Below, piece after piece: positions 5,695 through 30,700 of a stretch of 64,000 bases of DNA. The notes beneath the pieces were generated by a model. That model did no database searches and had not been told where the DNA came from. It saw only the letters and a list, made by a program, of their open reading frames with translations. Position numbers and translations under genes: made by a program. This DNA comes from Paracoccus rhizosphaerae (GTDB lineage: Bacteria > Pseudomonadota > Alphaproteobacteria > Rhodobacterales > Rhodobacteraceae): the NCBI RefSeq assembly GCF_026162645.1, contig NZ_JAOTBE010000004.1, positions 62,001 through 126,000 on the forward strand. Direction: 5' to 3'. Each line of letters opens with the position of its first letter. Within the stretch, counting starts at the first letter, position 1.

Positions 5695-6114
5695 TCAACC
5701 CAGGTCGATGCGTGCGCGGAATGTCAGGTCGACCTGACGGGCCGAGCCGCTTTTCATCCGCCGCGCCGTGGCGCGCAGAAACCAAATTCCTGCCAGATGG
5801 CCGCGGGACAGCTCGAGGCTGCCTTGCTCCAGCGCGTCGGTCACGGCGACCGCAGCCGCCTTGATCGCGCCGAAACCCGCGCCGCCGTCGGAGCCGGCCA
5901 TCACCGACACCACGAAGTCATGACGCGACCCGCGCGCGGTTGCGTCGCTGGCATCGCGCACCTCCTCGGCACCAAGCGAGACGAAGACGCCGCTTGGCGC
6001 ATCGACGGGCATGGCGTCGAAGATCGCATCGCCGACCAACTGGTTCAGCGACGCGTCGGCGCGCAGGTGCTGATAGATCGCCGCTTGCAGGGCAACGCCC
6101 GCACCATAGCTCAT
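5695..6114 (-). CDS. DUF3168 tail terminator protein (rcGTA gp8)
   Basis: A 139-residue DUF3168 protein. The family (gpU/gp17-like) caps the tail tube and joins tail to head. It starts MSYGAGVALQAAIYQHLRAD, has the PVDAPSGVFVSLGAEEVRDAS middle typical of the family, and a C-terminal basic strand. It overlaps gp7 by 4 nt (ATGA) and is 13 nt from gp9. Its position between head closure and tail tube genes fits a terminator role. Confidence 0.88.
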   Translation of the reverse strand: MSYGAGVALQAAIYQHLRADASLNQLVGDAIFDAMPVDAPSGVFVSLGAEEVRDASDATARGSRHDFVVSVMAGSDGGAGFGAIKAAAVAVTDALEQGSLELSRGHLAGIWFLRATARRMKSGSARQVDLTFRARIDLG

Positions 6115-6446
6115 GTCAGATCCTCCTCGCGGGCAAAGCAGTCGACAAGGCGCCCGCCGGCGTCGCTCTCGGCAACGGCCTCGATGTTGAATAGGCGCTC
6201 GCCCAAGCGAAACCGCTGCCCGGGGCGGGGCCGGCGCGGATCACCGACGGGCGCCGCGCGTGTCGTGATGCGCCACTGGACCACGCTGACCATGCCTGCG
6301 CCCGTTCCCTGCTCTCGCCCCGAGCGAGCGTCCATCCGCACCCACAGCCAGCCCAGTTGCCGCCAGTCGGTGCGATAGCCGCTCAGCCCGTCGGCGATCC
6401 TCTCCGGCGCTTCCAGCGCCAGGCGCGTGTTCATCGCGACAGGCAT
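6111..6446 (-). CDS. Phage head closure / head-tail adaptor protein (rcGTA gp7)
   Basis: A 111-residue head-tail adaptor of the SPP1 gp16 / HK97 gp10 type. It begins MPVAMNTRLALEAPERIADG and ends with an LFNIEAVAESDAGGRLVDCFA strand. I chose the start at 6446 because it overlaps the gp6 stop as TGATG and a GGGAG lies 8 nt upstream; a longer open frame to 6497 has no such support. It plugs the portal channel after DNA packaging in related phages. Confidence 0.85.
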   Translation of the reverse strand: MPVAMNTRLALEAPERIADGLSGYRTDWRQLGWLWVRMDARSGREQGTGAGMVSVVQWRITTRAAPVGDPRRPRPGQRFRLGERLFNIEAVAESDAGGRLVDCFAREEDLT

Positions 6447-7060
6447 CAGCGCCACTCCCGACTGCCGCGGCCGGCAAGGGTGCGGACCGCCCGCCATTTC
6501 TCGATCAGCGCACTGACACCGAAGGGCAGCGCATGGCGGGCGCTTTCGCCCCCCCGGTCGTCGTAGTACCGGGCAGCCAACAGGATCACCGCCTGCGCCA
6601 GGTCCGCAGGGACGTCCGACCAGCTGCTTCCAAACCCGGCGGTGAATGTCACGGTGACGAAACCCAGGCGCGGGACGTTGGGCAGGATGACGCCTGCGGG
6701 CAGGATGATCGGCCGTTGCGTGTCGGGCAGCAGGCGCCAGCTTTCCGCCGGCAGCACCGCCACGGTCCCGGCGCCGTCATCGATCTCGATCCGCTCGACC
6801 GAGTGCACGGGCGCCAGCGGCAGGGACTGGCCCAGCCGATCACGCCAGTCGTCCAGCTGCATCCGGAACCGCCGCGTCAGCAGCACCTTGCCGGTGCGTC
6901 CTTCGATGGTGGCGATGGCCGCGCGCAGAAAGCCAGCCAGCGCCGTCGTCTCGGCTGCGTCATCCGGCCCGTCGAAGCCCTGGGCCAGGCGCAGGTGCGC
7001 GCGCAGGGCGGCCACCGGCAGCGCCTCCGCCGCAGGCGCCGTTTCCTCTATCAGCATCAT
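6446..7060 (-). CDS. Head-tail connector (head completion) protein (rcGTA gp6)
   Basis: A 204-residue connector protein of the phage gp6-like/TIGR02215 family. Typical segments are LRAHLRLAQGFDGPDD near the N-terminus, the internal LLTRRFRMQLDDWRD, and PADLAQAVILLAARYYDDRGG near the C-terminus. The start at 7060 has GGGAGG 8 nt upstream; the longer open frame to 7174 runs through the hairpin behind the capsid gene and is not credible. The protein forms the ring between portal and closure protein. Confidence 0.87.
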   Translation of the reverse strand: MMLIEETAPAAEALPVAALRAHLRLAQGFDGPDDAAETTALAGFLRAAIATIEGRTGKVLLTRRFRMQLDDWRDRLGQSLPLAPVHSVERIEIDDGAGTVAVLPAESWRLLPDTQRPIILPAGVILPNVPRLGFVTVTFTAGFGSSWSDVPADLAQAVILLAARYYDDRGGESARHALPFGVSALIEKWRAVRTLAGRGSREWR

Positions 7061-7101
7061 CTCGCGAACCTCCCGTCCTGCCTGTCCGCATGTTCCACCA
7101 A

Positions 7102-7124
7102 GGGCAGGGCCGATGGCCCTGCCC
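7102..7124 (-). other. Perfect intercistronic hairpin between major capsid and gp6
   Basis: GGGCAGGGCC (7102-7111), a 3-nt loop, then GGCCCTGCCC form a perfect 10-bp stem in the 194-nt gap behind the major capsid gene. There is no U-run after it on the minus strand, so it is more likely an mRNA stabiliser or weak terminator than a full stop. Confidence 0.6.
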
Positions 7125-7254
7125 AGCTGTCTCGGCCAAAGGGATCGAAGGGGGCGCGTCCGCACGCCAGCCATCAGCGCGCGCGGACAGTTGCTCTACC
7201 GGAACGGCCGACGCCCGTACGCGCCCCCTTCCCCTCACATGATCCCGCGGGGGA

Positions 7255-8418
7255 TCAGGCGAACTTCAGCAGCTTGACCGCGCGGAAATCGGTCACGCCG
7301 CCGCCGACGCGCTTGGTGGCGTAGAAAAGGACGTGGGGCTTGGCGCTGAACGGGTCGCGCAGCACGCGCAGGTCAGGACGTTCGACGATGGTATAGGCGG
7401 CGCGGAAATCGCCGAAAGCCACCGCCAGCGCCTCGGGGGCGACATCGGGCATGTCCTCGCTGATCAGGACCGGATAGCCCAGCAGCTGCGGCACCTGGCC
7501 CACGCTCAGCGCATCCGACCACAGGAAGCGCCCATCGGCGTCCTTCATCTTGTGCACCCGCGCCGCGGTCTTTGAGTTCATGACGAACGACGCGTTCGCC
7601 CGGTACTCGGCCGCCAGCGCGTAGATGAGGTCGATCAGGCTGTCGGCGGGATTCGCGTCGTTGAAGCCACCCAGCGCGCCGGTGGTCAGGAAGCCGATCT
7701 GGCCGTCGGCCGCAGTGGCGTCCGGCATGGCGGCATAGGACAGGATGCCCCGCGGCTTGTCGACGCCGTCGCCGCTGATGAACGCCGCCGCTTCCGAGCG
7801 GGCGAACTTGTCGGCGATCCGTTCGGCCAGCCAGCCCTCCACGTCGAATGCCGCGTCGTCCAGCAGGCGCTGGCTGGCCTTCGGCATGGCCGACAGTTCG
7901 TGGACAGGGATGGTGATGCGCTCGATGCCGCCGGCACCGGTCTCGGCTGCCGCGGCCTCGGTGGCCCAGCCGGCGCCCATGTCACCCTTGTCGACCAGAA
8001 CCTCGTAGGACGCGCTCTCGATGGTGACGACATTCGCCAGCGCCCGCAGCGACGAACCGGACCGCAGCACGGCCTGCACGGTCTCGACCACCTTCGGCGC
8101 CGCCAGGAAGCCGCCGTCGCTGGCGACGGTCAGCCCCTTCTCCTCGATGACCAGGCCGCGCAGGCCGTCGTCGTCGCCGCTGCGCAGATAGGCGTTGAAT
8201 GCCTTTTGGTGCGGAACCTCGACCTCGGCCGTGGCGGACAGAGGGGCGCGGCCCCGGATGGCGGTCTTGCGGTCGATCATGGTCATGCGCTCTTCCTGTG
8301 CATTGAGCTTGGTCTGGATGTCTTCACGAAAGCCCCGGAGTTCGCTCACGAACCCCATCATGGCCCCCTTCAGGTCGGCGGACATGTCCCCGCCGCCCGC
8401 AGCCTTCACCTCGGTCAT
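7255..8418 (-). CDS. Phage major capsid protein, HK97 fold (rcGTA gp5)
   Basis: A 387-residue HK97-type capsid protein. The first roughly 100 residues are the charged helical delta/scaffold region (MSADLKGAMMGFVSELRGFR) that the gp4 protease should remove. The mature part carries the E-loop and P-domain features, for example GWATEAAAAETGAGG, IPVHELSAMPKASQRLLDD and FVMNSKTAARVHKM, and ends FRAVKLLKFA. It starts 6 nt after a GAGGAG. Hairpins flank the gene on both sides, as expected where capsid must be made in large excess over the other structural proteins. Confidence 0.95.
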   Translation of the reverse strand: MTEVKAAGGGDMSADLKGAMMGFVSELRGFREDIQTKLNAQEERMTMIDRKTAIRGRAPLSATAEVEVPHQKAFNAYLRSGDDDGLRGLVIEEKGLTVASDGGFLAAPKVVETVQAVLRSGSSLRALANVVTIESASYEVLVDKGDMGAGWATEAAAAETGAGGIERITIPVHELSAMPKASQRLLDDAAFDVEGWLAERIADKFARSEAAAFISGDGVDKPRGILSYAAMPDATAADGQIGFLTTGALGGFNDANPADSLIDLIYALAAEYRANASFVMNSKTAARVHKMKDADGRFLWSDALSVGQVPQLLGYPVLISEDMPDVAPEALAVAFGDFRAAYTIVERPDLRVLRDPFSAKPHVLFYATKRVGGGVTDFRAVKLLKFA

Positions 8419-19659: not shown

Positions 19660-19968
19660 TCAGAAGCAGGTCGAGGTCGCGATCACCGGAAACAGCGTGA
19701 AGGCGCTGGCCACAAGGCCGATCAAGCTGCCGGCGACAATGATCCGGCGTGCCCGCCCCTGCCCCGCCGGCATCGTCACGACCAGCAGGACATGCACCGC
19801 CAGCCCCGCCGCCCAGACGGCCCACATCGCCCCGCGATGCAGGTCCACCGGCCCCAGCGACACCTGCGTCCAGCCCAGGTTGCACCCTGCCCCGTGCAGC
19901 GCATAGACGGCCGAGAACAGCGCCCCCCACAGCATCGGCCCCGCAAGAGCGCGCGCCAGCCAGGTCAT
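19660..19968 (-). CDS. Small three-helix membrane protein of oxidase module 1
   Basis: A 102-residue protein, not a named family that I recognise. It has three hydrophobic segments (about 7-27, 46-65 and 76-98) and two cysteines, Cys29 in GAGCNLGW and Cys101 in the C-terminal ATSTCF. Its ATG overlaps the CoxI-III stop (ATGA). The protein after the second CoxI-III (28675-29082) has the same position, a similar helix pattern and equivalently placed cysteines, so the two look paralogous. A small oxidase subunit or assembly partner is likely but inferred. Confidence 0.75.
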   Translation of the reverse strand: MTWLARALAGPMLWGALFSAVYALHGAGCNLGWTQVSLGPVDLHRGAMWAVWAAGLAVHVLLVVTMPAGQGRARRIIVAGSLIGLVASAFTLFPVIATSTCF

Positions 19969-22514
19969 GCCAGCACCTCCTGCGCGGCGACGACCGCGAC
20001 CGATGCGGCGCTGGTGCCCAGCCAGAAGGTCTGTAACAGTTGCCACGCCGGAACCGCGCCCCGCCTGTCGGCCCCGATGCGGCCCTGCCGCGCATCGACA
20101 TCGGCCCGCAGCGCCAGCATCACCGCGATCACGCCATGCACAACTGCGAAGCCCAGGACGGCCCCGCGCAGCGCGTCGCGGGCGTGGCGCGTGGGATCGT
20201 CCAGCCCCCAGCCCAGCACGCCCAGCAGCGCCAGCGCCAACGCCGAACAGGCCAATCCAAGCCGCGTCCACAGCCTGCCACCCGCGCGCGTCCGGCGCGT
20301 CTCGGCCAGCCGCGCCGCGACGACACCGGCGGCCATCAGCGCCAGCGCGGCCAGCGCCGGAAGAAGCATCCACCACGTCCCGATACCGCTTTCGGGCGCC
20401 GGCCAGCCCGGCGCCACGACGGTCAGGAACCCGACACCGAACAGCAGCGACCCGTAGAGCGTCGCGTCCGCCACCAGCAGGACCATCGTCCCGGTCAGGC
20501 CCAAGGTCTGACGCACCTGCCAATGCAGCGGCAGCGACAGGCCGGGCGCGACCTCGACCAGGGGATGGTCGCGGTCAGTCCCCATGATCGCGCCCCAGCG
20601 CCAGACGACGACCAGCGTCGCCACGATCCCCAGCGGCGCCAGCCAGTAAAGCCCGGCCAGCATCATGGCGAAGAAGCTGCCGATCGCTCCGGCGGTCGCC
20701 ACCGGCAGCGCGGTATTGGTGGCCAGCACGGCGATATGCTGCGGTCTGCCGCTGCCGGGTTCGACGACCAGCGTCTCGCGCCAGCCGCGTGGCGCGCCGG
20801 CCAGCAGCCCTTCGCCCCGCGCCAGCGGCAGCAGGGCGCCGGCATCGGGCTGGCGCGGTCCCGGCAGAGAGGCGAAGTTGTAGGATGGCGCCGGCAGCGG
20901 CATCGCCCATTCCAGCGTCGGCGCTTGCCACGGGTTGCGCCAGCTGCGCCGCCCGAACATCCACTGCATGATGACGTCAAAGGCAAACAGCGCAAAGCCC
21001 GCCGCCTGGATCATCCCGAACCCCGAGGAGACCAGGTTCAGCCACTCGAACTCGGCATTTTCGGGATAGACCGCGATGCGGCGGCGCATGCCCAGAAGTC
21101 CGGTCAGGTGCATGATGAAGAAGGTGCCGTGAAAGCCGATGAAGATCAGCCAGAACGCGGCCTCGCCCAGGCCGCGCACCCGCCAACGCCCGCAGATCAG
21201 CGGCATCCAGTAGGCGATGGCCGCCAGCATCGGGAAGACGAAGCCGCCGACCAGAACGTAATGCAGGTGCGCCACCACGAAGTGCGTGTCATGCGCCTGC
21301 CAGTTGAAAGGCACCATAGCCAGCATCACGCCGGTCAGCCCGCCCATCACAAAGGTCGCGAAAAACCCTATGATATAGAGCATCGGCAGACGGAACTGGA
21401 CCCGTCCCTCCCACATGGTGCCGATCCAGGCGAAGATCTGCACCGCCGTCGGCACCGCCACCAGCGCCGACGCGGCCGAGAAGAACGACAGCGCCATGTG
21501 CGGGATGCCCACGGTGAACATGTGGTGGACCCACAGCCCGAAGGACAGGAAGACCAGCCCGATCACCGCCGCTACCAGCGCGCCATAGCCCAGGATCGTA
21601 GTCCGCGACAGGATCGGGATGATGGTGGATAGCGCCCCCGCGGCGGGCAGGAAGATGATATAGACCTCGGGGTGGCCGAACAGCCAGAAAAGGTGCTGCC
21701 ACAGAAGCGGCGATCCCCCGCGGGCGACATCGAAGAACGGCCAGTCGAAGGCGCGCTCGACCTCCAGCAGGATCGACCCCAGGATCAGCGGCGGAAAGCC
21801 CACCAGCATCATCACGGCGGTACCCAGCAGGTACCACCCCATCAGCGGCATGCGCGTCAGCGGCATGTGCGCGGCGCGGCAGCGCAGGATGGTCACGGTG
21901 ATCTCGATCGCGGCCGCCATGGCGCTGATCTCGACGAAGGTCACGCCCAGCAGCCAGACATCGGCATTGATGCCGGGCGTATAGGTCTTGCTGGTCAGCG
22001 GCACGTACATGAACCAGCCGCCATTCGGCGCCACCCCGAACAGCAGCGACAGCACGATGACGATGCCGCCGAACAGATAGCAGAAATACCCCAGCGCGCT
22101 GAGGCGGGGATAGGCCATGTCGCGTGCGCCCAAAATCTTGGGCAGAAGCCAAAGCGCCAGCCCCTCCAGCAGCGGGATCGCAAACAGGAACATCATGATG
22201 CTGCCGTGCATCGTGAAGATCTGGTTATACAGCTCGGTGTCCAGGAACGCGCCGTCGCGCGTCGCCAGCTGCGCGCGGATCATCATGGCCAGGACGCCGC
22301 CGATGGCGAAGAAGACGAACGCCGTCGCCATGAAGCGCTTGCCGATCGTGCCGTGGTTGACCGAGGTGAAGAACCCCCGCCAGCCCGGCAGGTCGCGCCA
22401 GACCTCGTCCAGTTCGCGGTGCAACGGCAGGGCGCGTCGCGGCGGGTTGGCCGCGATGCCGGCATCGGTGTCGATGGCGTCGTTGCGGGTGTCGATCCGG
22501 GGCCCTTTGGTCAT
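19965..22514 (-). CDS. Fused cytochrome c oxidase subunit I-III, module 1
   Basis: An 849-residue heme-copper oxidase in which subunit I (about 1-560) is fused to a C-terminal subunit III-like membrane region. Heme a and CuB ligands are present (TMHG at His103, HPEVY with His281 and the cross-linking Tyr, VHHMF, and HFVVAHLHY). The D-channel Asp is kept (GARDM, Asp132), but the Asn seven residues on is Ser139. The K-channel lysine of the PTGIKIF motif is Gln359 (PTAVQIF). It overlaps CoxII upstream and the small membrane protein downstream by 4 nt each. Confidence 0.93.
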   Translation of the reverse strand: MTKGPRIDTRNDAIDTDAGIAANPPRRALPLHRELDEVWRDLPGWRGFFTSVNHGTIGKRFMATAFVFFAIGGVLAMMIRAQLATRDGAFLDTELYNQIFTMHGSIMMFLFAIPLLEGLALWLLPKILGARDMAYPRLSALGYFCYLFGGIVIVLSLLFGVAPNGGWFMYVPLTSKTYTPGINADVWLLGVTFVEISAMAAAIEITVTILRCRAAHMPLTRMPLMGWYLLGTAVMMLVGFPPLILGSILLEVERAFDWPFFDVARGGSPLLWQHLFWLFGHPEVYIIFLPAAGALSTIIPILSRTTILGYGALVAAVIGLVFLSFGLWVHHMFTVGIPHMALSFFSAASALVAVPTAVQIFAWIGTMWEGRVQFRLPMLYIIGFFATFVMGGLTGVMLAMVPFNWQAHDTHFVVAHLHYVLVGGFVFPMLAAIAYWMPLICGRWRVRGLGEAAFWLIFIGFHGTFFIMHLTGLLGMRRRIAVYPENAEFEWLNLVSSGFGMIQAAGFALFAFDVIMQWMFGRRSWRNPWQAPTLEWAMPLPAPSYNFASLPGPRQPDAGALLPLARGEGLLAGAPRGWRETLVVEPGSGRPQHIAVLATNTALPVATAGAIGSFFAMMLAGLYWLAPLGIVATLVVVWRWGAIMGTDRDHPLVEVAPGLSLPLHWQVRQTLGLTGTMVLLVADATLYGSLLFGVGFLTVVAPGWPAPESGIGTWWMLLPALAALALMAAGVVAARLAETRRTRAGGRLWTRLGLACSALALALLGVLGWGLDDPTRHARDALRGAVLGFAVVHGVIAVMLALRADVDARQGRIGADRRGAVPAWQLLQTFWLGTSAASVAVVAAQEVLA

Positions 22515-23212
22515 TCACGGCCCTCCTCGGCATCGGCGAAATCGGGCAACGGCCCCGCCGGGTCATAGGCGACAACCTCGAAGTTCATGAAGCTGTGGCC
22601 CAGCCCGCAGAATTCCGCACACAGCCCCTCATAGGTGCCGGGCGCGGCGGCCATCAGGCGATGCACGTTCCGGTGGCCGGGGATCGCGTCCATCTTGCCG
22701 CCAAGGCGCGGCACCCAGAAGCTGTGGATCACGTCGGACGAGGTGATCGCCACGTCGAAGGGCCGCCCCGCCGGAACGTAAAGGACCCCCTGCGTCGTCA
22801 CCGGCTGACCACCCGGACCCGGCTGCACGAACTCCCACGCCCACTGGCCGGCATGCGCCTCGACCAGAGGGGTGTCGTCGTCGCGCGCGATCATGCGTTC
22901 GCCGATCCAGATGCCGAAGCCCAGAAGCACCGTCAGCACCGCCAGCGAAAAGCCCAGGCCCCAGCCGAAGATCCAGCGACGCTCGGCTGCGAGACGGGGG
23001 CGCCCTTGCGACTGGCGGCGCAACGCGCGCCACAGCATTGCCATGACCAGAAGGGTGATCAGACCCGACCCGATCAGCATTGCCCACCACAGGCGCGCGA
23101 TCTCGACCGCGGCGGGTCCGGCGGGTGTCAGCGTGCTCAGCGGCCCTTCGCAGGCGGCCAGCAGCGGAACCGCCAGCAAAGCGGCGGGCTTGTTAGGGCA
23201 GAACCTGGGCAG
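22511..23212 (-). CDS. Cytochrome c oxidase subunit II, lipoprotein type, module 1
   Basis: A CoxII of about 220-233 residues. The CuA ligands are in CAEFCGLGHSFM, with the upstream His in DVIHSFW. A lipoprotein-like signal is visible (ALLAVPLLAACEG), then two membrane helices (LWWAMLIGSGLITLLVMAML and the GFSLAVLTVLLGFGI region). There is no ATG close to the signal peptide. Options are CTG 23212 with AGGGG 6 nt upstream, TTG 23179, or an ATG at 23284 that would overlap the divergent DUF2231 gene. It has no cytochrome c domain, unlike the second CoxII. Confidence 0.82.
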   Translation of the reverse strand: MPRFCPNKPAALLAVPLLAACEGPLSTLTPAGPAAVEIARLWWAMLIGSGLITLLVMAMLWRALRRQSQGRPRLAAERRWIFGWGLGFSLAVLTVLLGFGIWIGERMIARDDDTPLVEAHAGQWAWEFVQPGPGGQPVTTQGVLYVPAGRPFDVAITSSDVIHSFWVPRLGGKMDAIPGHRNVHRLMAAAPGTYEGLCAEFCGLGHSFMNFEVVAYDPAGPLPDFADAEEGRE

Positions 23213-23224
23213 TGGGGACCCCTG

Positions 23225-23755
23225 ATGCGCAAGAAGTATTCCTGGAGGCAGCGCCGCCGCCTTAGCGACCCGATCGAGGAGCATGTCGCCTTCAGCGACA
23301 CCGAAACCAAGATCGCCATCGCCGGGCATCCGCTGCATGCGATGATGGTGGCCTTTCCGATCGCGCTGGCGTTCTCCGTCTTCGGGGCGGATGCGATGTA
23401 CTGGTTCACCGGCGACGACTTCTGGCCGCGGGTCGCGCTGTGGGGGTCCGGCGTGGCCTTCGGCATGGGCGTCCTGGCCGGCGTCACCGGTACGGTCGAA
23501 CTGCTGATGGCCCCCGGCATCCGCATCCGCAGCGCCAGCTGGACGCATTTCATCCTGGCGGTGATGCTGCTGTCGGTGCTTGGCCTCAACTGGGGCTTCC
23601 GGCTCGACGACCCGGTGGGGGCGGTACTGCCTTGGGGCGCGATGATCTCGGCCTTGGCGGCGGGGATGACGGGGATCACCGGCTGGCACGGCGGCAAGCT
23701 GGTCTTCGACTATCACATCGGCGCGCAACGCAGGGACAAGGGCGGTCATGCCTGA
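23225..23755 (+). CDS. DUF2231 domain membrane protein
   Basis: A 176-residue protein with a charged N-terminus (RKKYSWRQRRRLSDPIEEH) and four transmembrane segments. GHPLHAMMVAFPIALAFSVF is the family signature with conserved His residues, and a similar THFILAVM follows. DUF2231 proteins often accompany terminal oxidase and copper genes, but the role is unknown. It is transcribed divergently from CoxII of module 1 and its end overlaps the convergent CopD-like gene by 10 nt. Confidence 0.85.
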   Translation: MRKKYSWRQRRRLSDPIEEHVAFSDTETKIAIAGHPLHAMMVAFPIALAFSVFGADAMYWFTGDDFWPRVALWGSGVAFGMGVLAGVTGTVELLMAPGIRIRSASWTHFILAVMLLSVLGLNWGFRLDDPVGAVLPWGAMISALAAGMTGITGWHGGKLVFDYHIGAQRRDKGGHA

Positions 23756-24255
23756 CCCCACGTCCCGCGCGGCGACAGCATGAAGCGCGGCATCCAGTCG
23801 GTCAGCCCGCCCAAATCGGGCTTGGCCAGCACCAGCCACAGCACGCCCACCATCAGCGGGATCGCCAGCGCCAGCGGGATCAGCGGCGACGGCAGGTTGT
23901 GCATGCCCCTGTGTTCGGCCGAGATCAGGATGAAATGCCCGATCCAGGCGTGAACCAGCGCCATCCCGGACACCAGCGCCAGCTTGGCCACGAACCACAG
24001 GTCGAACACGTCGGCGGCGAAGATCAGCCCGGTGCCCGCCGCAATGGCAACGACCGCCGCAGGCGTCGCAAAGGCGACATAGCCGTAATGTGTGATCAGG
24101 CGGAATTCGGCATAGCGGGCCTGCAGCTTCTCGCTGCCGCGGTCGCGCCGCCATGCCCCGCCATAGAGGCTGAGAAGCAGCGGCAGCGCGATTAGCGACG
24201 CGCACCAGCAGAGCATCGCCGCCAGGTGCAGATACTTGAGCAGGGCGACGATCAT
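23746..24255 (-). CDS. CopD-like four-helix membrane protein
   Basis: A 169-residue protein with four hydrophobic segments. Histidines sit in KYLHLAAMLCWCASL and VHAWIGHFILIS, and a Cys pair (CWC) lies in the first helix. It resembles CopD/YndJ-type membrane proteins linked with copper or heme handling. It overlaps ctaG by 4 nt (ATGA), so both are probably made together to serve CuB or heme insertion in the neighbouring oxidases. Function is inferred from context. Confidence 0.75.
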   Translation of the reverse strand: MIVALLKYLHLAAMLCWCASLIALPLLLSLYGGAWRRDRGSEKLQARYAEFRLITHYGYVAFATPAAVVAIAAGTGLIFAADVFDLWFVAKLALVSGMALVHAWIGHFILISAEHRGMHNLPSPLIPLALAIPLMVGVLWLVLAKPDLGGLTDWMPRFMLSPRGTWGQA

Positions 24256-24971
24256 GCCGCGAACCCGGCCTGCCAGCCGCGCCGCAGCACGACCGCGGCC
24301 AGCGCCGCCAGCGGCAGGAAACCCGGCACCCACATCAGAAGACCCGCCAGCTGCTGGTCGGCCAGCGCGCCCAGGCCCCAGGCCGCCGCGCCGCCGATGT
24401 GCTGCAGGTAAAGAACTCCGGGCGCGAAGGTCAGCAGCGCCCCGATCAGCCCCATGATCCCGGCCAGGCCGCCCACCAGAAGCGCGCGGCGCATCGCGTC
24501 CTCGGCCGTCATGTCGCGCGTCAGGATGGCCGACCAGAACGCCCAGGCCGGCAGCAGCATCGCCGCCTGCATCGCCCAGTAAAGGCCGTCCGACGCCCAG
24601 ATCGCCGCATAGACCGCCGGCAGGTGCCACGCGACCATGGCAGCCGTGACCGCCCCCAGCGACAGGCTGGCGGGCACGCGCGCCAGGATCGGACAGGCCA
24701 GCGCCAGTGCGGGCGCCGCCACCGTGATCAGCAGCAGGTGATGGACCGACCGCGCCGCGAACAGCGCCACCGTCAGCGCGCAGAGCGGCGACACGAACGC
24801 CACCGCCAACGCAGTCAGTGCCACGGCCGCAGCGCCCCGACGCTCCGTCGCGAACCAAAGCGCACAGCCGGCCAGCGCCAGCGCCGCCAGAAGCACGGGG
24901 TCCGGGTTCCATGCCGTCCAGATCTGAGTGGGTGCCGGCGCGGGACCGCAATACGGAGTCTGCTGGATCAT
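24252..24971 (-). CDS. ctaG: CtaG (caa3 type) cytochrome c oxidase assembly protein, module 1
   Basis: A 239-residue polytopic membrane protein of the Caa3_CtaG family (PF09678), with about seven hydrophobic segments and conserved His residues in ARSVHHLLLITVAAP, VAWHLPAVYAA and YLQHIGGAAAWGLG. The family is needed for active caa3 oxidase in Bacillus, probably through copper delivery. The start at 24971 follows AGGGA by 5 nt. It faces the second oxidase operon across an approximately 190-nt divergent gap and precedes the CopD-like gene. Confidence 0.87.
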   Translation of the reverse strand: MIQQTPYCGPAPAPTQIWTAWNPDPVLLAALALAGCALWFATERRGAAAVALTALAVAFVSPLCALTVALFAARSVHHLLLITVAAPALALACPILARVPASLSLGAVTAAMVAWHLPAVYAAIWASDGLYWAMQAAMLLPAWAFWSAILTRDMTAEDAMRRALLVGGLAGIMGLIGALLTFAPGVLYLQHIGGAAAWGLGALADQQLAGLLMWVPGFLPLAALAAVVLRRGWQAGFAA

Positions 24972-25157
24972 CAGGGTCCCTGTCCTGAATGCCACGCGGG
25001 CATGTTACGGCTTGGTGACGTAACCGCCTGTCACGGCGCGGGTTCCCGCCGATCCGCATCTGGCTGAGGCCCGACCACCGACACGCCCTGGGGAACAAAA
25101 CGGCACACGGGAAGTTGAAGGAACCGGGCCATAACAAACGCGGAAGTGACGGGACAT

Positions 25158-26135
25158 ATGCGGCGACCACCCCTGGTCTGGCGGGCGATCCGCCTCGGGC
25201 CGATCATGGCCCTCGCCGGGTGCGAGGGGACGCAGTCGATGTTCTCGCCCGCCGGGATCGACGCGCTGGCGACGCTGAACCTCTTCTGGGTGATGCTGGC
25301 TGGCGCGGTCGTGATCTGGTTCGCGCTGAACGGGCTGTTCCTCTATGTGACCCGCATCCACGTCGGCAAGATGTCCCGGCGCCTGGCCGAGGCGGTCATC
25401 ATCGGCGGCGGCATCCTGTTTCCGCTGGTGGTGCTGTCGACGCTGTTGATCTACAGCTTGCCGATGATGGGGCATCAGCGTGCGCCCGACGACGGCCTGC
25501 GCGTCAGCATCACGGCCGAGCGGTGGTGGTGGCGCGTCGAATACTGGCCGGACGGCGCCGACGCCCCCGTCGTTTCCGCCAACGAGCTGCGCCTGCCCGT
25601 GGACCAGCGCAGCGAACTGCTACTGACGGCGGGCGAGGTGATCCACAGCTTCTGGATCCCGGCGCTCGGCGGCAAGACCGACATGTTCCCCGGCCGCATC
25701 ACCCGCATGACGCTGGCCCCGTCGCAGACCGGCACCTTCCGCGGCCAATGCGCCGAATTCTGCGGCCTGTCGCATGCGCTGATGGCGATCCCGGCGGTCG
25801 TCATGGAGCCCGATGCCTTTGCGGACTGGCTGGCCGACCAGGCGCAACCGGCCGACCTGTCGGCCCCCGGCCGCGCCGTCTTCCTGCGCGAAGGTTGCGG
25901 CGCCTGCCACACCATCCGCGGCACCCCCGCCGCCGGGCGGGTGGGGCCCGACCTGACGCATCTGGGCAGCCGCACCGCGCTGGCCGCGGGCATCCTGCCG
26001 ATGACGGCCGACGCGCTCCGCGCCTGGATCTCGAACCCCGAGGCGGTCAAGCCGGGGGCCGAGATGCCAGCCTATGACCACCTGAACGACACCGACATGA
26101 CGGCCCTGGCGGCCTATCTGATGGGGCTGGAATGA
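25158..26135 (+). CDS. Cytochrome c oxidase subunit II with fused cytochrome c domain (caa3 type), module 2
   Basis: A 325-residue CoxII. After a lipoprotein-like signal (IMALAGCEG) there are two membrane helices. The CuA domain has its ligands in EVIHSFW and CAEFCGLSHALM, and a C-terminal cytochrome c domain has heme motif CGACH and a distal Met in GAEMPAYDHL. The fused cytochrome should accept electrons from a periplasmic donor. I prefer ATG 25158 to the in-frame GTG four codons earlier. It overlaps the next gene by 4 nt. Confidence 0.92.
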   Translation: MRRPPLVWRAIRLGPIMALAGCEGTQSMFSPAGIDALATLNLFWVMLAGAVVIWFALNGLFLYVTRIHVGKMSRRLAEAVIIGGGILFPLVVLSTLLIYSLPMMGHQRAPDDGLRVSITAERWWWRVEYWPDGADAPVVSANELRLPVDQRSELLLTAGEVIHSFWIPALGGKTDMFPGRITRMTLAPSQTGTFRGQCAEFCGLSHALMAIPAVVMEPDAFADWLADQAQPADLSAPGRAVFLREGCGACHTIRGTPAAGRVGPDLTHLGSRTALAAGILPMTADALRAWISNPEAVKPGAEMPAYDHLNDTDMTALAAYLMGLE

Positions 26136-28678
26136 CAAGCGACGCCGACCGCGGCACCTATCCGCCGACCGAGGAGATGCTGGCACAGCCGGTCCCCGCC
26201 GAGGTTGCCAAGGCGCAGGCCGACCGGCTGCGCAAGGTTTGGGCGCAGCCGCCCGGCTGGACCTACTGGTCCGCCGTCAACAACACCGAGGTCGGCGTCT
26301 GGTACTGCCTGACAGCCACGTTCTTCATGCTGCTGGCGGGGATCCTGGCGCTGCTGATGCGGGTGCAGCTGGCGGTGCCGGAAAACGACTTCCTGGATGC
26401 CAGCCGCTACAACCAGTTCTTCACGATGCACGGCTCGGCGATGATGTTCCTCTTCGCGGTGCCGATCTTCGAGGCGATCTCGATCCTGATCCTGCCGTCG
26501 CTGCTGGGTGCGCGGGACATGCCGTTCCCGCGGCTGTCGGCCTACGGCTTCTGGTGCTTCGTGATCGGCGGCATCTTCGTCATGGGGTCGCTTCTGTTCG
26601 ATGCGGCGCCCGATGCGGGATGGTTCATGTATCCGCCGCTGGCCACGGAATACGGCGGCATCGGCGCCGACATCTGGCTGCTGGGCCTGTCCTTCATCGA
26701 AGTGGCCAGCATCGCGGCGGCTGTGGAACTGATCGTGGGCGTCCTGAAATGCCGCCCGCCGGGGATGCGCGTCAACATCATGCCGCTTTACGCCTGGTAC
26801 GTGCTGGTCGTGGGGGGGATGATCGTCTTTGCCTTCCCGCCCCTGATCGCCGGCGACTTCCTGTTCGAGATGCAGCGCAGCTTCGACTGGCCCTTCTTCG
26901 ACCCGGAACGCGGCGGCGACCCGATGCTGTGGCAGCACCTCTTCTGGATCTTCGGCCACCCCGAGGTCTATATCATCTTCCTGCCCTCGATCGCCGTCAC
27001 CGCGATGATCGTGCCCACGGCGGCGCGCCGCCCCATCGTCGGCTATTCTTGGATCGTGCTGTCGGCGGTGGGAACGGGTTTCCTCAGTTTTGGGCTGTGG
27101 GTGCACCACATGTTCGCGACGGGCCTACCCGCGATCAGCCTGGGATTCTTTTCCGCCGCGTCAGAGGCCGTGGTTCTGCCCACCGGCATCCAGATCTTCG
27201 CCTTCGTCGCGACGCTGATGGTCGGGCGTGTCAGGATGATCCACCCGATGCTGTGGATCGCGGGGGCGCTGGCGATCTTTGTCGCGGGCGGGCTGACCGG
27301 CGTCATGGTCGCCATCGTGCCCTTCGACTGGCAGGTCCACGACACCTATTTCATCGTGGCGCACCTGCACTACACCATCTTCGGCGGGATGCTGTTCCCG
27401 GTCATCGGCGGCATCTATTACTTCTATCCCATCATCGCCAAGAAGCAGCTGTCCGAGCGTCTGGGGAAATGGGCCTTCTGGCTGATGTTCACCGGGTTCA
27501 ACGTGACCTTCCTGCCGATGCACCTGACGGGGATGCAGGGCATGCCGCGCCGGGTCTTCACCTATCCGGGCGATCTGGGGTGGAACTGGCTGAACATGAT
27601 CTCGACCGTCGGGGCGTTCGTGATGGCGGCGGGCATCCTGGTCTTCGTCTATGACCTGCTGCGGCCCAAGGGCAAGCAGCCCGACCCGCCGCGCAACCCC
27701 TGGGATGCGGGCACGCTGGAATGGACCCACAACGTCCCCGGAGAGGCCTGGGGCATCCGCTCGATCCCTTACGTGGACACCCGCTATCCCCTCTGGCAGC
27801 AATCGAAGATGCAGGAGAGGATCGACGCCGGCCGCTATTACCTGCCAGACGCCGAAGAGGGCAAGCGAGAGACCCTGGTCACCAGCGTCATCGACGCCCA
27901 TCCCCTGCACGTCCAGCGCGTAACCGGCCCGGCCTGGATCACCATCTGGGCCGCGATCTTCACCGGCGGGGCGTTCATCTTCCCGACCTTCCACTGGTAT
28001 CCGCCGGCCATCGTCAGCGCGGTGCTTGCGGTGGCCTGCATCATCTACTGGAACTGGACCTCGACCGCCGTCATCCCAGAAAAGGACAGCAAGGACGCAG
28101 GCTTGGGCCTGCGGCTGCCGCTCTATGTCTCGGGGCCGGATGCGGTGGGCTGGTGGGCGGTCTGGATCACTATGCTGGCCGACGCGACGGCGTTCTCCAG
28201 CCTCGTCTTCGCGGTCTTCTTCTATTGGACCGCCAGCGCGCAGTTCCCGCCTGACGGGGCGCAGTTCGCGAATGGCGGGCTGGTGGCGGCGGGCACGGGG
28301 CTGGTGGCGGGCAGCTGGGCGCTGACCGCCTGGGCGCGCCGCGACGCCGGCCGCGGCGCGATGGCGGCGCTGGCGGCCGCGATGCTGGCGGCCTGCGCTG
28401 GCGGGGCTGTGCTGTTCCTGGCGCTGTGGACGACGGACATGGATCCCACCGAACATGTCTATCCCGCGATGATGTGGGCGCTGGTCATCTGGGTGATCGT
28501 CCACCTGATCGCAGGGGTCGTCCTGCAGGGATACTGCCTCGCGGGCCTTGCCTTCGGCAAGATCACCCGCCGCCACGATGCGCCGCTGTGGAACAGCCTG
28601 CTGTTCTGGCACTTCCTTTGCCTGACGGTCCTTGTGACGGGCGCCATGATCGCCATCGCCCCGAGGTTGATGACATGA
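26132..28678 (+). CDS. Fused cytochrome c oxidase subunit I-III, module 2
   Basis: An 848-residue CoxI-III fusion, clearly homologous to, but well diverged from, the module 1 copy. Ligands and the Tyr cross-link are present (TMHG at His100, HPEVY with His276, VHHMF, HFIVAHLHY-like YFIVAHLHY). The D-channel Asp is Asp129, while Ser136 takes the place of the pump-critical Asn. The K-channel lysine in PTGIKIF is Gln354 (PTGIQIF), the same substitution as in module 1. The subunit III-like tail follows about residue 600. It is coupled to its neighbours by ATGA overlaps. Confidence 0.93.
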   Translation: MTSDADRGTYPPTEEMLAQPVPAEVAKAQADRLRKVWAQPPGWTYWSAVNNTEVGVWYCLTATFFMLLAGILALLMRVQLAVPENDFLDASRYNQFFTMHGSAMMFLFAVPIFEAISILILPSLLGARDMPFPRLSAYGFWCFVIGGIFVMGSLLFDAAPDAGWFMYPPLATEYGGIGADIWLLGLSFIEVASIAAAVELIVGVLKCRPPGMRVNIMPLYAWYVLVVGGMIVFAFPPLIAGDFLFEMQRSFDWPFFDPERGGDPMLWQHLFWIFGHPEVYIIFLPSIAVTAMIVPTAARRPIVGYSWIVLSAVGTGFLSFGLWVHHMFATGLPAISLGFFSAASEAVVLPTGIQIFAFVATLMVGRVRMIHPMLWIAGALAIFVAGGLTGVMVAIVPFDWQVHDTYFIVAHLHYTIFGGMLFPVIGGIYYFYPIIAKKQLSERLGKWAFWLMFTGFNVTFLPMHLTGMQGMPRRVFTYPGDLGWNWLNMISTVGAFVMAAGILVFVYDLLRPKGKQPDPPRNPWDAGTLEWTHNVPGEAWGIRSIPYVDTRYPLWQQSKMQERIDAGRYYLPDAEEGKRETLVTSVIDAHPLHVQRVTGPAWITIWAAIFTGGAFIFPTFHWYPPAIVSAVLAVACIIYWNWTSTAVIPEKDSKDAGLGLRLPLYVSGPDAVGWWAVWITMLADATAFSSLVFAVFFYWTASAQFPPDGAQFANGGLVAAGTGLVAGSWALTAWARRDAGRGAMAALAAAMLAACAGGAVLFLALWTTDMDPTEHVYPAMMWALVIWVIVHLIAGVVLQGYCLAGLAFGKITRRHDAPLWNSLLFWHFLCLTVLVTGAMIAIAPRLMT

Positions 28679-29082
28679 GCCACGACAAGCAGACATCCGA
28701 CGCCCGGCAGTTCGCCGAGGAAAGCAGCAGCCTGGTGCGGATCACCGCGGCGCCGCTGACATGGGCGGGCCATTTCGTGCTGTGCTATGGCGCGGCGGCC
28801 GTCTGGTGCGTGAAATGGCCCGGCCCCATCGGCCAGATGGCGCCGCTGCGCATCGCGTTGGGGCTGGCCACGGTGCTGGCCCTGGCGATCATCGCCTGGC
28901 TGGGCTGGCGGTCCTGGCAGCAATGGGATCTGCTGGACGACTACGACTATGAACACGAGATGGGCGTGGGCGAGGATCGCCACGAATTCCTGGGCCATGC
29001 GGCATTCCTTCTGTCCATCGTGTCCTTCGTGGGCGTGATCTTCACCTCGCTGCCGCTGGTCTTCGCGGCGACGTGCAGATGA
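28675..29082 (+). CDS. Small three-helix membrane protein of oxidase module 2
   Basis: A 135-residue protein without a recognised family. A polar N-terminus precedes a helix (WAGHFVLCYGAAAVWCVKW), a second helix (IALGLATVLALAIIAWLGW), an acidic loop (DLLDDYDYEHEMGVGEDRHE) and a third helix ending LPLVFAATCR. Cys45 and Cys134 sit where Cys29 and Cys101 lie in the shorter protein of module 1, and both start by overlapping the CoxI-III stop. It is likely a subunit or dedicated assembly factor of this oxidase type. Confidence 0.75.
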   Translation: MSHDKQTSDARQFAEESSSLVRITAAPLTWAGHFVLCYGAAAVWCVKWPGPIGQMAPLRIALGLATVLALAIIAWLGWRSWQQWDLLDDYDYEHEMGVGEDRHEFLGHAAFLLSIVSFVGVIFTSLPLVFAATCR

Positions 29083-29648
29083 GGTGGGCGCCCGCATCCG
29101 CCGCAATCGCCGTGCTGGCGGCGGCCTGGCTGCTGCCCTGGGACCGCTGGACGGGGCCCTTCCCCGCCCACATGGTCCGCCACATGGCGCTGGTCGCCAT
29201 CGCCGCGCCGCTGATCGTGCTGGCCCTGCCGGGGCTGGCGGGGCGGCTGGCGATCCCGGCGCTGGCCGGGATGGTGGTCGAATTCGTCGTCGTCTGGTCC
29301 TTCCACCTGCCCGGCCTGCAGGACCGGACCGTCCAGGGGCCGGGCTGGTTCGCGCTGGAGCAGGCGGCCTTCCTGGGTGCCGGACTGGCGGTCTGGGCGG
29401 GTGCACTGGCGGCGCGGCCGCTGGCGGGCGCCGGGGCGATGCTGCTGACATCCATGCACATGACGCTGCTGGGGGCGCTGATCGTGCTGTCGCCGCGGCC
29501 GATCTATGCGATCTGCGGACAGGACGTGGGGTCGCAGCAGCTGGGCGGGCTGATCATGCTGGGCATCGGCACGCCCGTCTATCTGGTGGCGGGCCTGTGG
29601 CTGGTGGGCCGCGCCCTGCATGACGGCGGACAGGAGGTTCGGGCATGA
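29079..29648 (+). CDS. CtaG-like cytochrome c oxidase assembly protein, module 2
   Basis: A 189-residue membrane protein related to the Caa3_CtaG family but shorter than the module 1 copy. Conserved His residues are in PAHMVRHMALVAIAAPL, VVWSFHLPGLQ and LLTSMHMTLLGA. Four to five hydrophobic segments are visible. The ATG at 29079 overlaps the preceding stop; it overlaps the cytochrome gene by 4 nt. It probably supports CuB or heme insertion in the caa3-like oxidase. Confidence 0.82.
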   Translation: MRWAPASAAIAVLAAAWLLPWDRWTGPFPAHMVRHMALVAIAAPLIVLALPGLAGRLAIPALAGMVVEFVVVWSFHLPGLQDRTVQGPGWFALEQAAFLGAGLAVWAGALAARPLAGAGAMLLTSMHMTLLGALIVLSPRPIYAICGQDVGSQQLGGLIMLGIGTPVYLVAGLWLVGRALHDGGQEVRA

Positions 29649-30700
29649 AGACGGTGATCCGGACGCTGCTGGCGGTGGCGGGGCTTGGGCTAGCGGGTGC
29701 TGCGGCGGTGGTCTTCGGCGGCCTCTATGACGTGTCGGCGCGGCACGGGCACCTGCCCGGTGTGTCCTGGGTGCTGCACACGACGTTTCGGAACTCGGTC
29801 CAGCTGCGCGCGCGGCCGATGGCCGAGGTGCCGCCGCTGACCGACCAGATGGCCGCCTTGGGCGCGCGCCACTATGACGCCAGCTGCCGCCACTGCCACG
29901 CCAGCCCCGGAGAGACCGCCACGCAGACGATGCGGGCGATGGTGCCCCACCCGCCCCACATCACCGACGCCGTCGCGGACTGGAAACCGAACGAGCTGGG
30001 CTGGATCGTCTATCACGGCGTCAAGATGAGCGGAATGCCCCAATGGCCCGCCCCGCGCGAGGACGAGGTCTGGGCGGTCGTGGCCTTTCTGGACCGCGTC
30101 TCGCAGATGTCGGAGGCCGCCTATGAGGACCTGACCGCACAGCCCCAGGCCGAACTGGCAGGGTTGTCCTATTGCGCAAGCTGCCACGGCTTGGACGGCC
30201 ATGCGCCGAACCCGCAGGTTCCCCGGCTGGATATCCTGGACCGGCCGTATCTCGACATGTCGCTCGAGGCGTTCCTGGGCGACCTTCGCCACAGCGGCAT
30301 CATGCAGCACGCGGTGACCGAGGTGCCGCCGGAGGCTCTGGACCCGCTGGCCGAGCACTATGCCGCGCAACCGCTTGGACCGGCGGCCGCGCAAGACCTC
30401 GACCCGGCGCTGGTCGCGCGGGGTCAGCTTCTTGCCGAGGCGCAGGAGGGGGACGACGTGCCGGCCTGCCGGTCCTGCCACGGGCCCTGGCCCGACAAGC
30501 TGCGGGACGAGTTCCCGTCGCTGTCCGGTCAGCACGAGCCCTATCTGCGCAGCCAGTTGAAGGCCTGGCGCGACGGCCATCGCGGGGGCGGCCCGGTGTC
30601 CGAACTGATGCGGGAAGCCGCCGAAGATCTGGAGGATGCAGATATCGACGCGCTGGCGGCATATTACGCCTCGCTGCCGCCGGCCCGGCTGTCCCGCTGA
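29645..30700 (+). CDS. Triheme c-type cytochrome of the oxidase operon
   Basis: A 351-residue exported or membrane-anchored cytochrome. An N-terminal hydrophobic segment (LLAVAGLGLAGAAAVVFGGL) precedes three CxxCH heme sites: CRHCH (about residue 84), CASCH and CRSCH. Candidate distal Met ligands are in KMSGMPQW and in the C-terminal cytochrome domain. It ends the five-gene operon, and its stop lies 2 nt from the end of the convergent exoD-like gene. It probably feeds electrons to the oxidase, or links it to another donor. Confidence 0.85.
   Translation: MKTVIRTLLAVAGLGLAGAAAVVFGGLYDVSARHGHLPGVSWVLHTTFRNSVQLRARPMAEVPPLTDQMAALGARHYDASCRHCHASPGETATQTMRAMVPHPPHITDAVADWKPNELGWIVYHGVKMSGMPQWPAPREDEVWAVVAFLDRVSQMSEAAYEDLTAQPQAELAGLSYCASCHGLDGHAPNPQVPRLDILDRPYLDMSLEAFLGDLRHSGIMQHAVTEVPPEALDPLAEHYAAQPLGPAAAQDLDPALVARGQLLAEAQEGDDVPACRSCHGPWPDKLRDEFPSLSGQHEPYLRSQLKAWRDGHRGGGPVSELMREAAEDLEDADIDALAAYYASLPPARLSR

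Follow-up and report, generated by a model that had tools for sequence, protein, structure and literature searches.

Bacterial A-family oxidases with glutamine at the K-channel lysine position and a changed set of D-channel residues

Introduction

The closest described relatives of the enzymes considered here are the A1-type aa3 haem-copper oxidases (HCOs) of Paracoccus denitrificans and Rhodobacter sphaeroides. In the account of PMC3084760, the K channel of A-type enzymes consists of K354, T351, S291 and Y280 (P. denitrificans numbering, used throughout), and in R. sphaeroides it is described as starting in subunit II, at E101 or H96 (PMC10341450). How this channel and the D-channel asparagines enforce the pumping of protons is a long-standing question, addressed mostly through engineered mutants. 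According to PMC12901375, the changes N98D, N98T and N98S (bovine numbering; N131 in P. denitrificans by Table 2 of that paper) retain O2 reduction without pumping, and the same source describes how N98D or N98T, added to a K-channel mutant, restored a step that had been lost. Here, we analyse a window of 64,000 nucleotides of Paracoccus rhizosphaerae (the whole stretch of contig NZ_JAOTBE010000004.1 from 62,001 to 126,000) in which two neighbouring gene clusters, A and B, each encode a CoxI-III fusion protein with Gln at position 354 and Ser at position 131. They belong to a clade of natural, fixed and widespread enzymes in which both channels are changed and the catalytic site is kept.

Other oxidases share single traits with these proteins. 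The B-type (ba3) and C-type (cbb3) enzymes likewise lack the canonical Lys at the K position, and Table 2 of PMC3084760 lists them as separating charge without a D channel. Fusion of CoxI to CoxIII is found in the caa3 oxidase of Thermus thermophilus (2yev) and in the COX operon types a and a-II (Degli Esposti, 2014; PMC4013037). Passages of the latter paper describe COX1-3 fusions, COX1 forms of 630-670 amino acids (aa) that occur with pyrroloquinoline quinone (PQQ) dehydrogenases, and the presence of type a-II in Rhizobium, Sinorhizobium and Mesorhizobium. The operon class is, by these passages, known already; a word search of the main text finds neither 'channel' nor 'proton'. According to PMC3084760, four of 1216 oxidases lacked the channel residues of their own type, and these were assigned to the B type; members of the present clade, if they were within that set, must have counted as normal A type. 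Loss of the K channel within family A is mentioned in passages already in print, and this half of our observations may be contained in Degli Esposti (2020; cited in PMC8239418). In the titles, abstracts and passages searched, which left most subscription papers outside, neither a Gln354 clade nor Glu at position 190 or 199 came up, and we found no description of the gained acids in the accessible literature.

Results and discussion

Channel residues of the two fusion proteins

A and B were placed in the P. denitrificans numbering through the canonical CoxI of their own genome (L001), which aligns over its full length with P. denitrificans CoxI (1ar1; 1183 bits). The alignment bears out what an earlier note, drawn from the letters of this DNA alone, had read in both proteins. 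The K-channel Lys is replaced by Gln (Q359 in the PTAVQIF motif of A, Q354 in PTGIQIF of B) and the D-channel Asn at 131 by Ser (S139 and S136), and the haem and CuB ligands are kept together with the cross-linking Tyr (H94, H276, H325, H326, H411, H413 and Y280). D124 and E278 are also present in both, the D-channel stretch reading GARDMAYPRLS in A, with D132 and S139, and GARDMPFPRLS in B, with D129 and S136.

The changes extend beyond those that the note had listed. N113 is Leu in A and Ile in B, N199 is Glu and S134 is Gly in both, and further Glu residues stand at positions 108, 190 and 246 (Table 1). Y35 and S193 are both found in B, where A has Phe35 and Ala193; T351 is kept in both proteins and S291 in A, with Ala in B. 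Enzymes of this kind share with A1-type aa3 oxidases the fold, the metal ligands, E278, Y280 and usually D124, but differ from them in that K354, the entry Glu of CoxII, N113, N131, N199 and S134 are replaced and new Glu residues occur at 108, 190 and often 246.

The CoxI metal ligands and Y280 of A and B, like their E278 and D124, are among the residues by which PMC3084760 defines an A1-type HCO, a definition that also takes in N113, N131, N199, S134, Y35 and S193 of the D channel and K354, T351 and S291 of the K channel. The sequence scores side with the A type: B reaches 397.8 bits with the best A-type chain versus at most 53.1 with ba3, and A 415.3 versus at most 27.4. The model of B has 33-35% identity to the chains listed against it from R. 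sphaeroides and P. denitrificans. Unlike B- and C-type enzymes, A and B keep E278 and D124, the latter being usual among their relatives, and have the Tyr at the A-type place.

Distribution and origin of the Gln354 oxidases

CoxI sequences came from 80 loci in genome contigs, the best 80 of at least 591 relatives of B. A COX1-family search of 299 genomes of the phylum contributed its 30 best loci, and a search of 299 genomes with B its own best 30; 20 fetched regions and 16 plasmid regions completed the set. Four short hits, the duplicate L118 and one further short hit were dropped, and the fragment L153, which gives gaps, was kept. Position 354 is Gln in 120 of the 178 aligned sequences, Lys in 53 and Ala or Thr in five. 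The sample is biased towards B, since 79 of the 120 Gln354 rows come from its best 80 relatives; thinned to under 80% identity, the 120 rows leave 51. The Lys354 rows comprise the 30 best COX1-family matches and 23 others. A Gln354 enzyme occurs in at least 29 of the 299 genomes searched with B (27 in loci L119-L145, the genome of the window, and G239, where the gene is split over two contigs), a lower bound with up to three candidates scored per genome.

A tree was built from 36 diverse rows of the 178, including actinobacterial, Bacillales, haloarchaeal and Escherichia coli sequences, after removal of ten channel columns. All 19 Gln354 rows formed one clade (support 98/96); adding the single Ala354 row gave a wider clade (100/99) that excluded each of the 16 Lys rows. 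The grouping recurred in a quick tree of 74 rows, where the Gln354 clade alone had a support of only 53, and 99 with the Ala/Thr354 rows. The substitutions in A and B are thus more than chance, the 120 Gln354 rows being separate from the 53 Lys354 rows and the 19 of them that were placed in the tree forming a single clade. We set aside two independent events in A and B, because with one clade a single ancestral change suffices. Judged by their sequences, the Gln354 oxidases are a widespread bacterial group of single origin, for which 'two neighbouring oxidases', the frame of the earlier note, is too narrow.

Some sequences at the edges of this group deserve mention. A sister group (L146, L147, L148, L150, L151) has Trp278 (HPWVY), Ala or Thr at 354, and keeps N113, N131 and N199. 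A Rhodopirellula sp. (Planctomycetota) contig (L031) carries a copy like B that falls within a clade of Pseudomonadota, by gene transfer or contamination.

K channel

Position 354 is Gln in every one of the 120 clade members, and in 51/51 after thinning. The other K-channel positions are variable, with the exception of Y280, which is kept in all 119 readable rows: T351 is Thr in 79 rows, Ala in 25, Ser in 13, Asn in two and Met in one, and S291 is Ala in 60, Ser in 58 and Thr in one (n = 119). A substitute Lys near 354, which the earlier note had named as a finding that would speak against its reading, was sought in the alignment; Lys or Arg occurs at 346-362 in none of the 120 rows, nor does Lys occur in helix VI (268-294) in any of them. 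Lys stands elsewhere within 335-364 in five rows. Glu345 in helix VIII was rejected as a general replacement, being found in only 56 of the 120 rows, with Met in 46.

The change is matched in subunit II. We take the entry Glu of CoxII (E101 of R. sphaeroides) to be the Glu of the xExxWTxxP motif. It is present in none of 118 Gln354-type CoxII proteins, where Ile, Val, Trp and Leu are commonest in that column. Among the Lys-type CoxII, which came exclusively from the canonical loci of the COX1-family search, all 28 that could be read have it. With K354 and the entry Glu both lost, residues of the K channel are missing from two proteins of the complex, and the channel appears dismantled in each of the two subunits.

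D channel and gained acids

On the D-channel side, N113 is kept in none of 118 readable clade members, N199 has become Glu in 116 of 119, and Ser is the commonest state at N131, combined with the loss of K354. E278 is Glu in 118 of 119 rows, with Asp in the remaining one, and position 124 is Asp in 105 of 118. Glu190 is found in all of 119 rows and Glu108 in 113 of 117, the other four having Gln. Since position 108 lies four residues ahead of 113 (117 of 118 readable rows), it shares a helix face with the lost N113. The set E108-D124-S131-E190-E199-E246-Q354 is common to 94 of the 120 rows. Thinning leaves the picture unchanged, with E190 in 50/50 and E199 in 48/50 rows, versus Glu at 190 or 199 in 0/32 thinned Lys rows.

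Proton route and pumping

According to the earlier note, these enzymes may take up and pump protons in another way than the standard aa3 enzyme. The sequences support this from both subunits and both channels, as a possibility and not as proof. We would give roughly even odds to the following, more explicit account, in which A, B and their relatives are genuine O2 reductases that have abandoned the K channel, use a rebuilt proton route on the D side, pump weakly or not at all and serve as an electron outlet. D124 would most likely be the cytoplasmic entrance for every proton used in O2 chemistry; from there an acid-lined route along helices II and IV would lead by E199 and E108, and next by E190, towards E278 and the active site of an otherwise A-family fold. 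With the asparagines that are linked to coupling in standard enzymes all exchanged (Ser at 131, a hydrophobic residue at 113, Glu at 199), pumping would most likely be weak or absent while turnover continues, and the pairing of K-channel loss with N131S makes this outcome plausible. The R. sphaeroides mutant N207D, at the place of N199, is reportedly decoupled as well. The pumping outcome cannot be read directly from such mutants, however, because the gained Glu residues have no counterpart in them. As for the physiological role, we infer that electrons could leave in B via the haem c of CoxII and the neighbouring c-type cytochrome, and several relatives lie beside periplasmic dehydrogenases.

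More tentatively, the whole A-family clade might use a new pathway for protons, in which buried Glu residues of helices II and IV took over after a single abandonment of the K channel, with a side branch devoid of any standard entrance (the Rhizobium etli, Mesorhizobium ciceri and Caballeronia types) that would use an undescribed one. If so, these natural enzymes would embody the K-channel loss and the Asn 'decoupling' mutations made in the laboratory.

Several observations weigh against the account given above. Asp124 is missing from 13 of 118 members (eight Asn, four Glu, one Ser) and nine of these have no acid there, which rules D124 out as an entrance common to all members. Position 124 is Asn or Ser in these nine (L141-L145, L149, L171, L173, L175), which also lack K354, the CoxII entry Glu and E246; L149, L173 and L175 are also without E199, and L141, L149, L173 and L175 have Gln108. 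No standard cytoplasmic entrance is left in them, since the acid at 124, K354 and the CoxII Glu are all missing. N131 is kept in 10 of 118 members, including L002 of the same genome. In the predicted model, whose structural reading is limited to helix limits, E246 lies five residues from a helix end and may be a surface residue. Position 354 raises a difficulty of its own: the mutation K319M (bovine numbering; K354) is described as essentially blocking haem a3 reduction in standard oxidases (PMC12901375), and an enzyme without this Lys would therefore need a compensation. An acid is found in the stretch that begins four positions ahead of the entry column and ends at the Pro in 30 of 118 Gln354-type CoxII, that of B included, and might stand in for the entry Glu, and H96 is named as an alternative K-channel entrance in standard enzymes (PMC10341450). 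No c-type cytochrome occurs among the scanned genes of cluster A, so the role as an electron outlet rests on B and the relatives. Finally, the gained Glu residues could equally restore gating and pumping.

This last point leads to the alternative that we regard as possible, albeit unlikely on balance, namely a full pump on one channel, in which the acid-lined D-side path carries the pumped protons as well as those for chemistry, at a normal or lowered stoichiometry, much as the B- and C-family enzymes conserve energy with one channel. Its strength is the conservation of E278 and Y280 and the invariance of E190, which suggests a selected function and not decay, and the ability of B- and C-type oxidases to separate charge without a D channel (PMC3084760, Table 2) provides a precedent. 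Most members, however, have lost or exchanged the asparagines tied to coupling, and changes of the N98S type abolish pumping in standard enzymes, as described in PMC12901375. It is more doubtful still that the K channel works without its Lys, Gln354 passing protons with water and Thr351/Ser291 in the manner of the Thr, Ser and Tyr of the alternative K channel of B-type enzymes, which has no Lys either (PMC3084760). Gln354 is indeed invariant, T351 and S291 are kept in many members, and some CoxII have the acid near the old entrance mentioned above; against this stand the complete loss of the CoxII entry Glu, the Ala residues that replace T351 (25/120) and S291 (60/119), and the lack of Lys or Arg at 346-362.

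A supply of protons from the periplasm, which would make O2 reduction non-electrogenic, as described for the cytochrome c-dependent nitric oxide (NO) reductase cNOR, appears improbable. It would suit the nine members that have lost the acid at 124 along with K354 and the entry Glu of CoxII, as well as the place of E246 near one end of helix V, which we take to be on the P side, yet these same nine lack E246, and D124 is kept with E199 and E108 in the 94 rows that hold the full set. The earlier note had also hinted at NO reductase activity. We consider it highly improbable that these are NO reductases: beyond the loss of a standard channel nothing speaks for it, while the cross-linking Tyr is universal (119/119), the NO reductase signature HHX(arom)(arom)X17E occurs in 0/120 rows, and the CuA ligands are present in 151 of 154 aligned CoxII, the two of the window included.

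The question can be addressed directly, as members of the clade occur in culturable species, among them Sinorhizobium meliloti (on pSymB), Azospirillum brasilense Sp 7, R. etli CIAT 652 and Dinoroseobacter shibae. If pumping is lower in these enzymes, the usual annotation of their genes as ctaD, cytochrome c oxidase subunit I, overstates the energy yield.

Gene clusters and genomic setting

The genome of the window has seven COX1-family proteins, of which four were aligned: L001 with Lys354, and A, B and L002 with Gln354. This third Gln354 oxidase, L002 (contig C106), has the motif PSGVQVY, keeps N131 and carries E108, E190 and E199 in an open frame of 935 aa.

Cluster A runs on the minus strand from a Caa3_CtaG-type gene through a membrane protein and CoxII to the CoxI-III fusion, with a DUF2231 gene on the other strand; this order, the place of the DUF2231 gene included, matches that of plasmid pAK2 of Paracoccus sp. 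AK26. Cluster B, on the plus strand, consists of CoxII with a fused cytochrome c, the CoxI-III fusion, a small membrane protein, a Caa3_CtaG-type gene and a c-type cytochrome with three CXXCH motifs. The CoxII of B is thus of caa3 type (CuA motif CAEFCGLSH, haem c motif CGACH), and that of A has the CuA motif and no CXXCH. Compared with the main-text passages of PMC4013037, the gene content fits in part the COX operon type a, with its COX1-3 fusion, COX2 and characteristic neighbours. CoxI-III A scores 669.3 bits with NCBIfam CtaD_CoxA, slightly below the cut-off of 670.75. The start of its CoxII is provisional, the frame being open further upstream, and a lipobox-like stretch starts near 23173. 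The single Pfam match of the membrane protein at 23746..24255, UPF0093, is slightly below the cut-off.

Table 1. Coordinates in the window of the genes and diagnostic codons of clusters A and B. Residue positions to the right of a protein's own numbering are those of P. denitrificans.
Feature	Position	Strand	Basis or remark
CoxI-III fusion A, Q354-type oxidase subunit I+III	19965..22514	-	849 aa open reading frame (ORF); Pfam COX1 460.2 bits
CoxI-III fusion B, Q354-type oxidase subunit I+III	26132..28678	+	848 aa ORF
CoxII partner of A	22511..23173	-	CuA ligands present, CXXCH absent, entry Glu of the K channel missing
CoxII partner of B, 329 aa	25146..26135	+	CuA ligands, haem c domain (CGACH) at the C terminus; entry Glu of the K channel missing
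A Q359 codon, replacing K354	21438..21440	-	alignment, codon checked
B Q354 codon, replacing K354	27191..27193	+	alignment, codon checked
A S139 codon, replacing N131	22098..22100	-	alignment, codon checked
B S136 codon, replacing N131	26537..26539	+	alignment, codon checked
A E117, gained acid at 108, helix II, four residues before 113	22164..22166	-	
B E114, gained acid at 108	26471..26473	+	
A E195, gained acid at 190, helix IV	21930..21932	-	
B E190, gained acid at 190	26699..26701	+	
A E204, replacing D-channel Asn N199	21903..21905	-	
B E199, replacing N199	26726..26728	+	
A E251, gained acid at 246, near helix V end	21762..21764	-	
B E246, gained acid at 246	26867..26869	+	
DUF2231 membrane protein, opposite strand inside cluster A	23225..23755	+	Pfam PF09990 124.1 bits
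Membrane protein, cluster A, where Paracoccus sp. AK26 has its CopD-family gene	23746..24255	-	
Caa3_CtaG-type assembly factor, cluster A	24252..24995	-	Pfam PF09678 74.9 bits
Small membrane protein after CoxI-III B	28675..29082	+	DUF2157 match below cut-off
Caa3_CtaG-type assembly factor, cluster B	29073..29648	+	Pfam PF09678 58.2 bits
c-type cytochrome, three CXXCH motifs, cluster B	29645..30700	+	Pfam Cytochrome_CBB3 and Cytochrom_C

Sugar or alcohol dehydrogenases were found near the oxidase genes in four of the eight annotated plasmid regions of this type: a sorbosone dehydrogenase in S. meliloti pSymB, a GMC oxidoreductase with gluconate dehydrogenase subunit 3 in Sulfitobacter and D. 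shibae, and a PQQ methanol/ethanol dehydrogenase in M. ciceri. The regions of R. etli, Caballeronia and Paracoccus AK26 have a formate-dehydrogenase-like gene instead, and in A. brasilense neither kind adjoins the oxidase genes. In a Pfam tally of neighbouring ORFs (90 of 138, from 10 of 12 chosen loci), Cytochrom_C was counted 14 times, Cytochrome_CBB3 11, COX2 seven, Caa3_CtaG five, and PQQ, molybdopterin, MgtC and GSDH twice each. Among the window genes of Table 1 that were scanned, no dehydrogenase is present in either cluster; the link is common in relatives and was not seen among these genes.

Fusion to CoxIII is missing from at least L171, L173 and L175 of the nine members lacking an acid at 124, and the gene content around these three resembles the COX operon type a or a-II, as far as described in the passages of PMC4013037. 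The CoxII partners of three A-type relatives, L136 (from the genus of the window), L137 and L174 (Paracoccus sp. AK26), have lost the CuA ligands, with Cys changed to Ser or Asn and His to Tyr, and have no CXXCH; to judge from these residues, they are possible quinol oxidases or have another electron entry.

The motif GGAAC-N15..19-CGTT, presumably the promoter element of the general-stress (EcfG-type) sigma factor, occurs at 81 sites versus 45 expected in 86 loci; 44 of these loci have it somewhere, and most sites lie away from the operon start. GGAAC-N16-CGTT lies near 6922-6925 in L013, L054, L056 and L059, about 1.1 kb before CoxI and probably just before coxII. One relative, L154 (about 5799-8092, genome G050), is split over two overlapping frames, by a frameshift or a sequencing error.

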